From NCBI RefSeq assembly GCF_005924265.1, contig NZ_VCLB01000006.1:1-64000 (forward strand): a stretch of DNA of 64,000 bases. Direction: 5' to 3'. Shown piece after piece: positions 37,672 through 59,466 of this stretch. Under the pieces are notes generated by a model. It worked only from the letters and a program-made list of their open reading frames with translations. It had not been told where the DNA came from and searched no databases. This DNA is from Martelella lutilitoris. GTDB lineage: Bacteria > Pseudomonadota > Alphaproteobacteria > Rhizobiales > Rhizobiaceae. The position numbers were made by a program, and so were the translations under genes. How positions within the stretch are numbered: position 1 is the first letter of the stretch; each line of letters opens with the position of its first letter.

Positions 37672-37784
37672 GTCATGCTCGGACTTGATCCGAGCATCCA
37701 GGCGGCTTGATGACCTGAATTTCAATTGTTTTTCGCGAGAACAGCCATGTGGCCTGGATCCCCGGGTCAAGCCCGAGGATGACG
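37672..37784. repeat. paired palindromic repeat
   Basis: The left unit spans 37672-37702 (GTCATGCTCGG...CATCCAGG) and the right unit 37753-37784 (CCTGGATCCCC...GGATGACG). Orientation and layout equal those at 34917, 45711 and 63828, with about 50 bp between the units. Confidence 0.78.
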
Positions 37785-41086: not shown

Positions 41087-41841
41087 TCCCGCTCTATCTC
41101 TGCCCGAAAACGCCGGACCCAGGCATCACTGTGCGCGTCAGCCATCTTTTGGGTAGGCGTCTGGAGCGTGTCGGCGAGCGCGGGATCGCGCCCCAGTTCC
41201 GTCAAGACGGACGCCAATGTCGCTTGCGGAGCTTGCGACAGCGCATCATAGGTCAATGTCAGCGGCTTCACGCCTTGTCTTTCGAACCAGGCAGTCCAGT
41301 CCCGATCGAACGTCAGCATGCTGGTGTACCATTCCCCTATCGCAGTAGAATCATAATCCGGCTTACGAAAGGGCGCCGTGCGCTCGATATCGCTTCCGTC
41401 CGGCGCCACATGCCACAACCCGCTCTGTCGCGCCTTAACGTAGGAGACGGCCTGCGCAACCTTGTCTTCGCGTGTCAGATGGATGAAGAGCGTTCGCCCG
41501 AATGCCTGCTCGATGCGAGCGCGATCCGAATCCATTCCCGGATAAAGGACGCCAAGCTTTTCGAGAAAAAAGGCAAAACTGGGCCGCTGCATCCGCAGGC
41601 CGAATATCCCGGTCTCGCCCCGTCCCTTGTGAATTGCGCTTGCAAACACCGCCTGCAGGCTTTCCGGCTCGTTCCTTCCCTGTGAAAGGCCAAAACTCTT
41701 CTGCCAGGCCTCCAGTGACGGCCGGTGGAAGTGGGAGTCGGGGTGGCCTGCAACACCCGTGGCCGCCAGCAGCCGGCACAGCAGGGTACTGCCACTGCGC
41801 GGACTCGTGCATATCATGTAGGACTTGTATCGGGTTGACAT
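41071..41841 (-). CDS. Stf0-family sulfotransferase
   Basis: A 256-residue enzyme of the type that moves sulfate from PAPS to a carbohydrate such as trehalose. The 5'-phosphosulfate loop is CTSPRSGSTLLCRLL near residue 10. The 3'-phosphate region is LTREDKVAQAVSYVKA near 130, and a basic C-terminal substrate region follows. The start at 41841 (MSTRYKSYMIC) matches the fold start. The acceptor is unknown; surface polysaccharide or glycolipid modification is plausible. Confidence 0.85.
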   Translation of the reverse strand: MSTRYKSYMICTSPRSGSTLLCRLLAATGVAGHPDSHFHRPSLEAWQKSFGLSQGRNEPESLQAVFASAIHKGRGETGIFGLRMQRPSFAFFLEKLGVLYPGMDSDRARIEQAFGRTLFIHLTREDKVAQAVSYVKARQSGLWHVAPDGSDIERTAPFRKPDYDSTAIGEWYTSMLTFDRDWTAWFERQGVKPLTLTYDALSQAPQATLASVLTELGRDPALADTLQTPTQKMADAHSDAWVRRFRAEIERDQLTA

Positions 41842-41926
41842 CGGAAATCCTGTGCAAGACAACACGCAAAAAAATAGCATGACAGGCCTCAGGACGCACC
41901 CGGCAATCGCTGTTCGGGCAGTGCGA

Positions 41927-43171
41927 TTACCGTGCGGAAGAAAGCCGCATCAAAGCCGCCAGCATCAGTTCCGCGCCCTTTTCGATATCCGCCCATTCGG
42001 AATATTCTTCCGGCGCGTGCGAAATACCGTTGCGGCTCGGCACGAAGATCATCGCCGAGGGGCAGAGCGCCATCATCGTCTGCGCGTCATGGCCGGCGCC
42101 GGAGATCATCCGTGTGGCCGGAAAACCGAGCGCCTCCGCCTCTCCTGACAAGAGATCGACCAATCCGGCATCGAAGGCAACCGGCGCAATGACGCTCTTT
42201 TCCTCGATTTCGTAGGCAAGGCCGTGCTTCGCCGCGACCGCTGCCGTCGTCCGGTAGAACAGCCTCTGCAACCCGCGCATGACCGCCTCAGAGGCATCCC
42301 GGATGATCACGGAGAAGGTCGCCTCGCCCGGCACCGTATGCGGATGATTGGGGAAAAGCTCCACTTTTCCGATCGTGATCCGGGCGATGTCCGACGGCGA
42401 ATGCGCAATCATGTCCGGGATCTGCACGGCGATCTCGGCAAGGCCGGCGAAAGCATCGGCGCGCATGTCCATGGGTGTCGTGCCGGAATGGTTGGCCGTG
42501 CCCTTCAGCGTGACCTGCAGATTGACGATCCCCGTCGCGCCCTCCGGCAGGCCGATCGCGATCCCCTCGCGCTCCAGCACCGGCCCCTGCTCGATATGAA
42601 GTTCGAGAAAGGCTTTGACGGACCCCTTGGGCCGGGCAGCGCCGAGCACGGCCTCCGGTTCCAGTCCCTGGGCGCGCATCGCATCGGCAAGCAGCACGCC
42701 ATCGGCATCGGCGGCGGACGTGAGCCATTCAGCCGTCACCAGACCGGCGATTGCCTGTGAGCCCAGCATGCCGCCGAAGCGCCCTTCCTCCTCCGAGGTC
42801 GCCACAACCTCGATCGGTATGGCGGGCTGCATGCCGGCATCCTTCATCGCCCGCACGCATTCAAGCCCGACGGCAACGCCCAGCGCCCCGTCAAAGGCGC
42901 CGCCGTCAACAACCGTATCAAGATGCGAGCCGACCATGATCGAAGGGCCGTCCGCATCGCCGAAACGCCCGAAAACCGAGTTCGCGCCGTCGCGCGTCAC
43001 GGCCAGGCCATCGGCCTGCATTTGCCCGGCAAACCAGTCGCGCACGGCCATATCGGCATCGGAGAAACCCGGCCTGTTGAACCCCGCGCCGGAACTGCCG
43101 GCGCCGAAGCGGTTGATGCCGTCGAGAAGCGCTTTGAGCCGCGCGGAATTGATCTTCGGTGTACTGCCCAT
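41927..43171 (-). CDS. M20-type amidase, hydantoinase/carbamoylase family
   Basis: A 414-residue binuclear-metal hydrolase of the group including N-carbamoyl-L-amino acid hydrolase, allantoate amidohydrolase and beta-ureidopropionase. Metal ligands are in GSHLDTVVDGGAFDGALG (about residues 82-100), ATSEEEGRFGG (about 128) and the ELHIEQGPVLE segment (about 192). These enzymes release ammonia from ureido compounds. It is divergent from the ABC importer and acetamidase genes, and its promoter shares a palindromic motif with theirs, so joint regulation is likely. Confidence 0.85.
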   Translation of the reverse strand: MGSTPKINSARLKALLDGINRFGAGSSGAGFNRPGFSDADMAVRDWFAGQMQADGLAVTRDGANSVFGRFGDADGPSIMVGSHLDTVVDGGAFDGALGVAVGLECVRAMKDAGMQPAIPIEVVATSEEEGRFGGMLGSQAIAGLVTAEWLTSAADADGVLLADAMRAQGLEPEAVLGAARPKGSVKAFLELHIEQGPVLEREGIAIGLPEGATGIVNLQVTLKGTANHSGTTPMDMRADAFAGLAEIAVQIPDMIAHSPSDIARITIGKVELFPNHPHTVPGEATFSVIIRDASEAVMRGLQRLFYRTTAAVAAKHGLAYEIEEKSVIAPVAFDAGLVDLLSGEAEALGFPATRMISGAGHDAQTMMALCPSAMIFVPSRNGISHAPEEYSEWADIEKGAELMLAALMRLSSAR

Positions 43172-45633: not shown

Positions 45634-46008
45634 TCGGGCGGGGGCCCAAGCGCCCGGATTGGCGACAAACCTGTCCAATGTTCGGGCGCAACCCTGTCCT
45701 CTTGACGGGCGTCATCCTCGGGCTTGTCTCGAGGATCTAATCCCCTCTTCATGCGAGCGGAGTCCATGGTCAGTCAGCAAGGCCGTTCTTTGAGGCTTTC
45801 CCTGACCTGAAGCGCCAATCGTGCTGGTACGTGCTTAGACCCTCGGGACAAGCCCGAGGGTGACGACAGAGGGCGGGACAAGCCCGAGGCAGGGCCGCGC
45901 CACTCGCTCCCAATACTCTGTCCCGCCAGCGGGAGAGAAGATTGCGGGCTATGCGGTAATGCCGCCAGCCGTCAAGTCAGGTTTCATGGCCACCACGGAG
46001 AACACGTC
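45634..46008. other. 375-bp gap inside the importer operon, filled by palindromic repeats
   Basis: No gene is present. Most of the gap is a repeat pair of the TCAT...CCAGG / CCTGG...TGAC type, with a further partial unit at 45873-45892 (see the repeat entry). The importer operon is thus interrupted by repeats between the binding protein and its first permease, which may set relative expression through RNA hairpins. Confidence 0.7.
45711..45892. repeat. paired palindromic repeat plus a partial third unit
   Basis: The left unit at 45711-45741 starts GTCATCCTCGGGCTTG, the right unit at 45838-45864 ends GAGGGTGACG, and a shortened copy (GCGGGACAAGCCCGAGG) follows at 45873-45892. The left and right units are inverted relative to each other, as in the other pairs of this family. 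Confidence 0.75.
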
Positions 46009-57290: not shown

Positions 57291-57986
57291 TCAGACCGTC
57301 AGGTGGCGGCGCGCCTCGGGAGTGTCCAACGTCTCGGCGGGACCTTCATGCACGATCTCGCCGCGGTCCATGATGTAGACCTGATCGGCGAGTTCCCGGC
57401 AGAAATCGAGATATTGCTCGACGAGCAGAATGGCCATGCCGGTTGAATCGCGCAGGTAACGGATCGCCCGGCCGATATCCTTGATGATCGAGGGCTGGAT
57501 GCCTTCGGTCGGCTCGTCGAGGACGAGAATCTTCGGCCGGGTAACCATGGCGCGGCCGATGGCAAGCTGCTGCTGCTGGCCGCCGGACAGATCGCCGCCC
57601 CTGCGCGACAACATCGATTGCAGAACGGGAAACAGGCTGAAGATGTCGTCGGGGATCGTCCGGTCTCGGCTTGCAAGCGGCGCAAAGCCGGTCTCCAAAT
57701 TCTCCTTCACCGTCAAAAGCGGAAAGATCTCGCGCCCCTGCGGCACATAGCCGACGCCGAGCTTCGCCCGGCGATAGGGCGCCAGCCCGTCAAGCGGCTC
57801 GCCCTGAAAGGTGATGGAGCCGCCCGATGTCGGATGCTGGCCGGTGACGGCGCGCAACAGCGACGACTTGCCGACGCCGTTTCGCCCCAGAACGCAGGTG
57901 ATCTTGCCCATATCGGCGGACAGCGAAACGCCACGCAATGCCTGCGCCGCGCCGTAATGGAGATTGACGTTATCGATGGTCAGCAT
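57291..57986 (-). CDS. urtE: urea ABC transporter ATP-binding protein UrtE
   Basis: A 231-residue LivF-like ATPase of the high-affinity urea importer. Walker A GRNGVGKSSLLRAV near 36, signature LSGGQQQQLAIGRAM near 140, Walker B ILVLDEPTEGIQP near 160, with the typical UrtE start MLTIDNVNLHYGAAQAL at 57986. It should be expressed with urtABCD, yet is split from urtD by a 720-bp insertion holding an antisense GIY-YIG gene and repeats. Confidence 0.93.
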   Translation of the reverse strand: MLTIDNVNLHYGAAQALRGVSLSADMGKITCVLGRNGVGKSSLLRAVTGQHPTSGGSITFQGEPLDGLAPYRRAKLGVGYVPQGREIFPLLTVKENLETGFAPLASRDRTIPDDIFSLFPVLQSMLSRRGGDLSGGQQQQLAIGRAMVTRPKILVLDEPTEGIQPSIIKDIGRAIRYLRDSTGMAILLVEQYLDFCRELADQVYIMDRGEIVHEGPAETLDTPEARRHLTV

Positions 57987-58050: not shown

Positions 58051-58666
58051 CCTGGATCCTCGGGTCAAGCCCGAGGATGACACGTAGGGAAACAATTGCG
58101 CTTGAGCAAAATACGCTTTTGAGGATGACAGGCATGAGAATGTCGTCCTTGCCGCGCCTACCCTCACTGTGTCATCCTCGGGCTTGCCCCGAGGATCCAG
58201 GCAACACGACAAAACGCCATGGCAGGCTACGTCTACATCGTCACGAACCGGCCGCACGGAACGCTCTATATCGGCGTGACGTCCGATCTTGAGCGTCGCG
58301 TTTTCGAACACCGCGAGGGACTGATCAAAGGTTTCACGAGCCGCTACGGCTGCCGCAGGCTCGTCTGGTACGTGGAGCACTTCGAGATCGGCAGCGCGAT
58401 CGCTCGGGAGAAAGCTTTGAAAGGCTGGAACCGCGCATGGAAAATCGCGCTTGTTTCTGATTTCAATCCCGGTTGGGATGACCTCTATGAGCGCTTTGTC
58501 TGAGCGATCCGGCCTGGATCCTCGGGTCAAGCCCGAGGATGACGCGGGTGGTGTGCGCGGTGGCACGAAAGCGGTCTCATCATTACTATCCTCCGCAAAA
58601 AAAGATGCAGAGAAAGCGCGAACCTTTCCTACCGTGTCATCCTCGGGCTTGACCCGAGGATCCAGG
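58051..58666. mobile_element. repeat-flanked GIY-YIG cassette inserted between urtD and urtE
   Basis: Four 31-bp hairpin units surround one small gene: 58051-58081 and 58513-58543 (starting CCTGGATCCTCGGG) and their inverse at 58171-58201 and 58636-58666 (starting GTCATCCTCGGG). Three are identical and one has a single change. The two flanking blocks, 58051-58201 (151 bp) and 58513-58666 (154 bp), appear to be diverged inverted copies of each other, like long terminal inverted repeats. The gene fills the space between the inner units almost completely (17 bp before, 9 bp after). The whole piece interrupts a conserved operon. Confidence 0.7.
58219..58503 (+). CDS. GIY-YIG nuclease domain protein
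   Basis: A 94-residue single-domain protein of the UvrC N-terminal (YhbQ-like) type. The YVYIVTN and LYIGVTSDLERRVFEHR segments give the paired tyrosines (GIY is VYI, YIG present) with the catalytic Arg, and a later Glu (EKALKGWNRAWK region) that ligates the metal ion. The gene is antisense to the urt operon and enclosed by 31-bp hairpin repeats, 17 bp upstream and 9 bp downstream. No clear ribosome binding site is visible. It may be the nuclease that moves the repeats, or only a passenger. Confidence 0.88.
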   Translation: MAGYVYIVTNRPHGTLYIGVTSDLERRVFEHREGLIKGFTSRYGCRRLVWYVEHFEIGSAIAREKALKGWNRAWKIALVSDFNPGWDDLYERFV

Positions 58667-58707: not shown

Positions 58708-59466
58708 TCACCGCCCCAGATAGTTCTCGATGACCTTCGGGTCGTTCGATACGTAGTCGATCGAGCCCTCGGCCAGTACGGAGCCCTCGGCGAGGCAGGT
58801 GACCTTGACGCCGAGGTCGCGGACGAAGCCCATGTCGTGTTCGACGACGACCACGGCGCGGGTTTTCGCGATCTCGCGCAAGAGGCGCGCGGTTTCCACC
58901 GTTTCGGCGTCGGTCATGCCGGCGACGGGCTCGTCGACCAGGAGAAGCTTCGGCTCCTGCGCCAGCAGCATGCCGATCTCGAGCCATTGCTTCTGGCCGT
59001 GGGAAAGATTGGCGGCAAGTTCGTCCTTGCGCGCGGTCATGCGGATCGTTTCGAGGATTTCCTCGATGCGGGTCCGGTCCTCACTGGTCAGCCGGTAGAA
59101 CAGCGTGGAGAACACGCCGCGCTTGCGGTTGAGCGCCAGTTCCAGATTGTCCCAGACCGTGTGGCTCTCAAACACCGTCGGTTTCTGGAATTTTCGGCCG
59201 ATGCCGAGCTGGGCAATGTCGGCCTCGTCCTTGCGGGTCAGGTCGATCGTGTCGGAGAAGAACACCTCGCCCGTATCCGGTCGGGTCTTGCCGGTGATGA
59301 TGTCCATCATCGTCGTCTTGCCCGCACCGTTCGGGCCGATGACGGCGCGAAGCTCCCCGGGCTCGATGACGAAGGAGAGGCTGTTCAGCGCCTTGAACCC
59401 ATCGAAGGACACCGAGACATTGTCGAGGTAGAGCAGGCTTTTTGCGCGTTTTTCCATCGGGCTCAT
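58708..59466 (-). CDS. urtD: urea ABC transporter ATP-binding protein UrtD
   Basis: A 252-residue LivG-like ATPase. Walker A GPNGAGKTTMMDIITGKTRP near 45, signature LSHGQKQWLEIGMLLA near 160 and Walker B LLLVDEPVAGMTD near 180; the SHGQKQWLEIG variant is typical for UrtD. Its start overlaps the urtC stop (ATGA). Its usual neighbour urtE is displaced by the repeat-flanked insertion. Confidence 0.95.
   Translation of the reverse strand: MSPMEKRAKSLLYLDNVSVSFDGFKALNSLSFVIEPGELRAVIGPNGAGKTTMMDIITGKTRPDTGEVFFSDTIDLTRKDEADIAQLGIGRKFQKPTVFESHTVWDNLELALNRKRGVFSTLFYRLTSEDRTRIEEILETIRMTARKDELAANLSHGQKQWLEIGMLLAQEPKLLLVDEPVAGMTDAETVETARLLREIAKTRAVVVVEHDMGFVRDLGVKVTCLAEGSVLAEGSIDYVSNDPKVIENYLGR

Follow-up and report, generated by a model that had tools for sequence, protein, structure and literature searches.

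The pairing of a small GIY-YIG nuclease gene with tagged hairpin repeats (REPs) is near certain. The gene and the repeats probably form one system, whose minimal element would be ~370 bp long and whose non-autonomous, gene-less derivatives would be short repeat pairs with their GTC tags facing outward. We base this reading on the bracketing of the gene by repeats, the matching of the two ends, the correlation of repeat load with the nuclease, the duplication of whole cassettes, the polymorphism of loci and the selection on the gene. In many bacterial genomes, palindromic repeats account for a noticeable share of the DNA.

The window is the 64,000-nucleotide stretch of Martelella lutilitoris that we analyzed (contig NZ_VCLB01000006.1, positions 1 to 64,000). 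Its nuclease gene, referred to as type A, lies on the plus strand at 58219-58503 and encodes a 94-aa protein that matches Pfam PF01541 (57.8 bits, 1.4e-15); the Pfam search found no domain besides GIY-YIG. Both neighbors run opposite to it: urtE at 57291-57986 (NCBIfam equivalog TIGR03410) and urtD at 58708-59466 (NCBIfam equivalog TIGR03411). The sequence-only reading had placed the gene antisense between these two, and this is confirmed. Two inner hairpin units flank the gene, an upstream CGTC-type REP at 58171-58199 (plus strand) and a downstream unit at 58515-58543 (minus strand), each with its GTC end facing away from the gene and its CCA end facing it. This GTC-outward pair with the gene inside, at 58171-58543 on the plus strand, is the candidate autonomous cassette; homologues share this layout, and it corresponds to the unit of duplication in Oricola described below. 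The outer units, at 58053-58081 (minus) and 58636-58664 (plus), form GTC-inward pairs with the upstream and the downstream inner unit, respectively. The sequence-only reading had missed these two pairs and also the GTC-outward pair around the gene. The four-unit layout also occurs in two other genomes of the genus (G004 and G009), and the urtD-side block occurs without a gene in a third (G011).

When folded, the two inner units form a 9-bp stem that begins with AT and a loop of 5 nt, between a GTC head and a CCA tail; the energies are -9.7 kcal/mol for one and -10.2 kcal/mol for the other (z-scores of -3.57 and -3.22). The hairpins noted earlier are real, and by their tags (GTC...CCA) the units are 29 bp long rather than 31 bp. 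The outer blocks of 151 and 154 bp are diverged inverted copies of each other, as had been suspected: their outermost 54 nt are 87% complementary, and the alignment of their middle parts scores 10.5, compared with 9.0 at most among 200 shuffles. Matches to the hairpin unit numbered 7 in the window and 0 in 100 shuffles. Two gene-less pairs of the same type as the nuclease-flanking units, both GTC-outward, lie elsewhere in the window, one REPIN-like with a 54-nt spacer (37672-37783) and one diverged (45711-45864).

We assessed the generality of the bracket in homologous nuclease genes. A protein scan of genomes from different species, together with relatives (the best 80 of 113), gave 107 loci, of which 6 were dropped for short flanks; the weak hits L162-L164 were not scored. 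With strict tags and 250-bp flanks, units in consistent orientation were present on both sides of the gene in 55 of these 101 loci and on at least one side in 86. Random positions in the same loci were bracketed on both sides in 6 of 5390 cases and had a unit on any side in 301, and mirrored sequence gave 0 and 5 of 101, respectively. A second, alphaproteobacterial set consisted of the best-scoring hit per genome from 60 of 122 genomes, which is not a random draw, less two loci with short flanks; here units were found on both sides in 34 of 58 loci and on any side in 47.

A third set represented the Bacteroidota (order of Ichthyenterobacterium; best-scoring hit per genome from 30 of 55 genomes, one dropped for short flanks). 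Strict tags identified units on both sides in only 1 of 29 loci and on any side in 6, and a test that uses no motif detected inverted repeats in 15 of 29. Most of these repeats are GTCATTGCGAGG...GAAGCAATCTC and alike, which keep the GTC head and the AT stem start and have a CTC tail, not CCA. We therefore relaxed the tail to C[CT][ACT]; since this rule was chosen after the Bacteroidota repeats had been seen, the figure for the 29 loci is not blind, and the controls were run under the same rule. Relaxed tags bracketed the gene on both sides in 16 of 29 Bacteroidota loci and on any side in 27 (random positions: both 0 and any 152 of 2982; mirrored sequence: none on both sides). The corresponding counts were 35 and 52 of 59 loci in Alphaproteobacteria (random: 0 and 148 of 1859) and 42 and 64 of 77 in a further set (random: 39 and 739 of 11,599). 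Loci with short flanks had been dropped from these relaxed-tag sets (1 of 30, 1 of 60 and 3 of 80). The bracket is general in at least two phyla, comprising the alphaproteobacterial and the Bacteroidota loci. Homologues with no unit on either side, which that reading had counted as a point against a pairing, do exist (15 of 101 with strict tags; under the relaxed rule 2 of 29, 7 of 59 and 13 of 77) and leave the pairing standing.

REPs are abundant in these genomes, and abundant repeats could have landed beside an ordinary gene by chance. We give this explanation a negligible probability: 54-59% of the genes are bracketed on both sides compared with 0-0.3% of random positions, and the mirrored sequence gave no such bracket. 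Chance association was rejected by the random-position, mirror and shuffle controls. In the motif-free test on 179 loci, 125 have inverted repeats that exceed the maximum of 895 shuffles; direct repeats were detected in 87 of the 179, the units being palindromes. A prediction was borne out as well. Two GTC-outward pairs 316 bp apart were found by pattern in Bacteroidota, and both contain a nuclease gene.

Details of the bracket vary. In 10 of 29 Bacteroidota loci (L319-L323, L325, L327, L328, L332 and L333) the stop codon of the nuclease gene, TGA in nine and TAA in one, shares bases with the tail of the repeat that follows it, so that the gene is fused to the repeat. Single copies from other groups were inspected by eye. 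The one from Aeromonas has a proper bracket, related GTCATTCTGA units lie close to the one from Planktothrix, and the dRS3-like units at the Neisseria gonorrhoeae copy are reversed and break the orientation rule. In one genome nine nuclease copies were read, and six of them had no tagged unit. Two Bacteroidota regions, G475:C31:267288-274103 and G574:C1:1481708-1491260, hold three nuclease genes each in ~7 and ~10 kb, which suggests local clustering. On Planktothrix agardhii plasmid p1 (L349), a homologue lies between a gene for an MmeI-type restriction enzyme and the DISARM gene drmA.

The two ends of a locus match each other. Across 65 non-redundant loci, 21 of which have identical units, the distance between the two units of one locus is 0.14 compared with 0.36 between loci, a difference that 0 of 10,000 permutations reach. 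The sequence of the units correlates only weakly with nuclease distance (Mantel 0.12, 10/2000). Strict co-divergence of unit and nuclease was rejected on this ground, and we therefore claim co-divergence solely for the two units of one locus. The stem is maintained as a stem: changes in it are compensated. The ninth stem pair plays no part in the detector; it is formed, by three pair types, in 57 of the 58 different units of 29 nt, compared with a shuffle maximum of 44; the other stem pairs are partly selected by the detector. Among 182 units near nuclease genes, the base before GTC is C in 65% and T in 31%. Just outside the GTC head, C and T together make up 96%; farther out, from -5 to -13, G is scarce (4-12% against a background of 30%). 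Lengths of 26, 27 or 29 nt account for 122 of the 170 distinct flanking units, and the rest are mostly longer. The units have the features of CGTC-tagged REPs, namely an unpaired CGTC/TGTC tag, a stem of 8-9 bp starting with AT, a loop of 4-5 nt, a CCA tail and dispersal as inverted pairs.

We then counted the repeats in the window's own genome, where its unit has 64 matches with at most three mismatches, the window's four included, and the reversed unit pattern has none. We read 32 loci, 30 of which are the best pattern matches, and found 28 adjacent REP pairs around them: 21 GTC-outward, 6 GTC-inward and 1 direct. The gene-less GTC-outward pairs among these loci have spacers of 21-94 nt. Only two inserts longer than 94 nt (limit 400) occur among the 21 GTC-outward pairs, 315 and 365 nt long, and both hold a GIY-YIG gene. 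This genome has a second nuclease, a paralogue whose frame is interrupted by a single TAA (G000:C11:467044-467316; L002, L195). It is bracketed by units of another type, type B (CCCGGCCTTGAGCCGGG core), of which the genome has 43 copies. We read this type B cassette as a decaying partner whose 43 repeat copies remain.

The 13 genomes of the genus give a mixed picture. Type B units number 35-56 in four of them and at most one in the other nine; among the four, the type B nuclease is intact in one, bears a stop in another and was not found in two. The unit pattern cannot separate types A and C. Counted together, units of these types number 64, 133 and 159 where the type A nuclease is present (three genomes) and 0-100 in the remaining ten genomes, several of them with a related type C nuclease. 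These A/C counts are not convincing alone. At the gene-less pair 37672-37783, DNA matches to G002, G006, G009, G010 and G011 stop at ~37600 and restart at ~37820 with almost nothing between; no precise empty site was established for gene-less pairs within the genus, the relatives being too diverged. By eye only, some type A gene-less spacers seem to resemble the leader of the nuclease gene beyond CCAGGC, a likeness on which we base no claim. Searches against Rfam and against phage records gave no match.

The repeats and the nuclease also co-occur on the scale of genomes. The nuclease family was present in 122 of 385 alphaproteobacterial genomes at E 1e-25 or better and absent from 248, and 15 genomes with weak hits were excluded. 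At least five matches to the pattern GTCATNCC...GGNATCCA were found in 69 of the 122 genomes with the nuclease versus 24 of the 248 that lack it (odds ratio 12.2, p 1e-21, kinship ignored), and the median number of matches is 8 versus 0. This load pattern misses several stem types, including the window's type A, and thus undercounts; with this limit, 39 of the 122 nuclease genomes have at most one match. Conversely, 14 of the 248 nuclease-less genomes have 10 to 137 matches, which indicates that REPs can outlive the enzyme or do without it. In nine of these 14 the single GIY-YIG hit lies in a UvrC-sized frame. G317, G395 and G308 have 75-137 pattern matches with their sole GIY-YIG hit in such a frame, so that their repeats may be orphans or have another partner. 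The other GIY-YIG hits lie in frames shorter than 140 aa (G121, G321, G406 and G418) or in one of 329 aa (G329). Seven other GIY-YIG genes in REP-rich genomes have no strict unit within 300 bp, and none is bracketed on both sides; the relaxed rule detects a single weak unit, to one side of the gene, at two of them (L265 and L283). This speaks likewise against chance insertion, and with 0 of 7 bracketed on both sides we rejected these genes as the partner in nuclease-less REP-rich genomes.

Whole cassettes have been duplicated to new loci. Oricola nitratireducens has two cassettes that are 92% identical at unrelated loci, with sharp ends: homology runs from the C before the upstream GTC to 13 nt past the downstream GAC. 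No clear target-site duplication was seen in the Oricola copies, and elsewhere the relatives are too diverged. The two copies read in R. leguminosarum Norway agree fully in gene and downstream unit and differ in the upstream unit, as if one had been copied into a resident repeat. The right end of this duplicate is less sharp and fades over ~35 nt.

The R. leguminosarum copies also bear on a different reading, in which REP pairs owe their movement to some other, RAYT-like enzyme or to recombination among REPs, and the nuclease gene merely rides between them. A gene identical in both copies beside an upstream unit that differs would be compatible with such a ride, as would the fact that GIY-YIG enzymes are not transposases. 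We consider it improbable, since one gene family is bracketed in both Alphaproteobacteria and Bacteroidota, and since the only two inserts above 94 nt in the GTC-outward pairs of the window's genome are both the nuclease gene. Furthermore, transposase genes have been sought at CGTC repeats, and that study reports merely fortuitous associations (Di Nocera et al. 2013, PMC3733652).

Cassettes are also present at some loci and absent from the same loci in relatives. On Sphingobium plasmids, a cassette lies between fnrL and a response regulator gene in seven records and is absent from four; we read four of the seven, and one of them has a frameshifted gene. Two of the cassette-less plasmids (L351, TomTYG74, and L352, TomTYG64) have a single palindrome in which a GTC-arm is joined to an arm-GAC, which would be either an excision scar, the product of a deletion from one unit to the other, or an empty target. 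The Rhizobium plasmids offered no usable empty site.

At the urt locus, the nuclease gene lies between two GTC-inward pairs in 3 of 13 genus genomes (G000, G004 and G009). Three others (G001, L118; G011, L116; G012, L120) have one GTC-inward pair and no gene at the urtD-urtE junction. The pair in G011 is identical to the window's urtD-side block at 145 of 156 positions (93%). Loss or gain of the gene and one block therefore separates the two alleles, and the lone pair would be an empty target or an excision scar. The junction is a gap of 11 bp in G003 and comprises 228 bp without units in G005 and G008. A different inverted-repeat element, with ends CTCCCCC...GGGGGAG, occupies it in G002, G006, G007 and G010 (L115, L119, L121 and L114), and this gap therefore collects repeats. 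The sequence-only reading had held that conservation of the gene at urt in all relatives would point to vertical inheritance and chance repeat insertion. The gene is not conserved in all of them, and vertical inheritance does hold over short times: the copy shared by G000, G004 and G009 shows that this is not a rapidly hopping element.

Other data also indicate slow movement. Among 42 copies in Rhizobium-like genomes, 24 pairs have proteins that are 95% identical or more, and only 12 of these pairs have any flank in common, some contigs being short. Only 2 of 57 within-genome nuclease pairs exceed 90% DNA identity; these pairs are to be judged by DNA blocks, as ungapped protein identities are unreliable. 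We accordingly rejected the idea that many recent within-genome copies prove amplification. The system looks like a slowly moving, mostly vertical one, as RAYTs are.

A nuclease that has been domesticated as a host-useful caretaker of REPs would leave some of the same traces. It would trim or resolve extruded hairpins, or regulate itself through them, and the REPs would have spread by other means or long ago. Strong purifying selection on the nuclease, the diverged state of most copies within genomes, vertical inheritance at urt in three genomes and the existence of REP-rich genomes without the nuclease are all consistent with this, as is the position of the upstream hairpin, a median of 21 nt before the start codon. 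We regard a caretaker as rather unlikely, though less so than a passenger, because whole cassettes duplicate to new loci and are missing at orthologous loci. RAYTs, moreover, are mostly single-copy, slow and mostly vertical, and are still regarded as mobilizers.

The enzyme itself is conserved. Across 100 homologues, nine columns do not vary, those of Y17, R27, H31, E64 and N83 included, and the protein has the GIY/YIG core with the conserved Arg, Glu and Asn of the superfamily; catalytic residues of GIY-YIG enzymes are among these. The gene is under purifying selection that preserves an intact active site, with dN/dS of 0.08-0.16 among three genus orthologues and 0.02-0.21 across all computable pairs. 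The AlphaFold model of the 94-aa protein has a pLDDT of 96, and its nearest folds are UPF0213 BH0048 (E 3e-4) and, more weakly, Slx1 (E 8e-3), a branched-DNA nuclease. The modeled proximity to Slx1 makes recognition of a hairpin or cruciform by the nuclease plausible.

The preferred reading, a single system of nuclease and repeats, suggests how the element might move. The element would be GTC-hairpin-CCA, the gene and TGG-hairpin-GAC, ~370 bp in all. The nuclease would recognize the hairpin, extruded as a single strand or as a cruciform, by its YGTC foot and would nick or cut there. Host repair would then copy the element or a gene-less pair to a new site, by homing-like copying or template switching. 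GIY-YIG enzymes hydrolyze DNA without a covalent intermediate, and the joining must therefore come from the host. The sequence-only reading had proposed a nuclease-driven counterpart of the REP/RAYT system. Its pairing is borne out by bracketing, co-occurrence, cassette duplication and absence at orthologous loci; that the nuclease drives the movement is what we infer from them.

We compared the system to known ones. REPs and REPINs with RAYTs (TnpA_REP) share with it the tagged hairpin repeats, mostly in inverted pairs and dispersed between genes, and a dedicated small enzyme gene bracketed by cognate repeats, whose copies are mostly diverged and vertical. They differ in that RAYTs are Y1/HUH tyrosine transposases with a GTAG tag, whereas here we find a GIY-YIG nuclease and a YGTC tag. 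MITEs with autonomous parents also combine gene-less inverted-repeat pairs with a gene-bearing copy that has the same ends, but here there is no transposase, and no target-site duplication was seen. GIY-YIG homing endonucleases such as I-TevI have the common catalytic fold and mobilize their own gene by cutting; the 94-aa protein differs in having no domain beyond GIY-YIG, and we know of no hairpin termini or gene-less derivatives in homing endonucleases. The nearest solved structures by profile and fold are UPF0213 GIY-YIG proteins (PDB 1zg2 and 1ywl), which are uncharacterized structural-genomics entries.

The closest repeats are the CGTC-tagged REPs (Di Nocera et al. 2013, PMC3733652), a class to which Neisseria dRS3 and rickettsial RPE-4/6 belong. 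Their CGTC/TGTC tag, stems of 8-9 bp starting with AT, loops of 4-5 nt and CCA tail recur in the units of the window and in most of the short ones; some units here differ in being 35-50 nt long or in having another tail (Bacteroidota). That study describes CGTC-tagged REPs as not associated with transposase genes and as seeming to lack a dedicated transposase, and proposes that the enzyme was lost early or that many transposases are able to act; the word GIY is absent from its main text. These REPs were thus published without a transposase partner, whereas here a partner gene accompanies them. We name the nuclease as a candidate partner that is present, under selection and bracketed by repeats in the two phyla sampled. 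We found no earlier description of a nuclease-REP pairing in the openly licensed PMC literature, including the accessible text of PMC9465073 and PMC6006769; preprints lie outside this scope, and an earlier report is possible.

A wider claim seems to us evenly balanced between true and false. A hydrolytic GIY-YIG nuclease of ~100 residues may have founded a second, independent REP world, with a ~370-bp autonomous, hairpin-ended element in at least Alphaproteobacteria and Bacteroidota and probably in Gammaproteobacteria and Cyanobacteria, which would move by nuclease cutting and host repair and would have seeded CGTC/TGTC repeats, including relatives of Neisseria dRS3. If the nuclease moves REPs, a second chemistry, unrelated to that of tyrosine transposases, gave rise to the same REP lifestyle, and the element would be among the smallest self-mobilizing elements known, without transposase chemistry.

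Elsewhere in the window, a segment of ~850 bp at 41094-41942 is missing from the corresponding site of G002, G009, G010 and G011. It contains a minus-strand ORF that we take, by eye, to be sulfotransferase-like.
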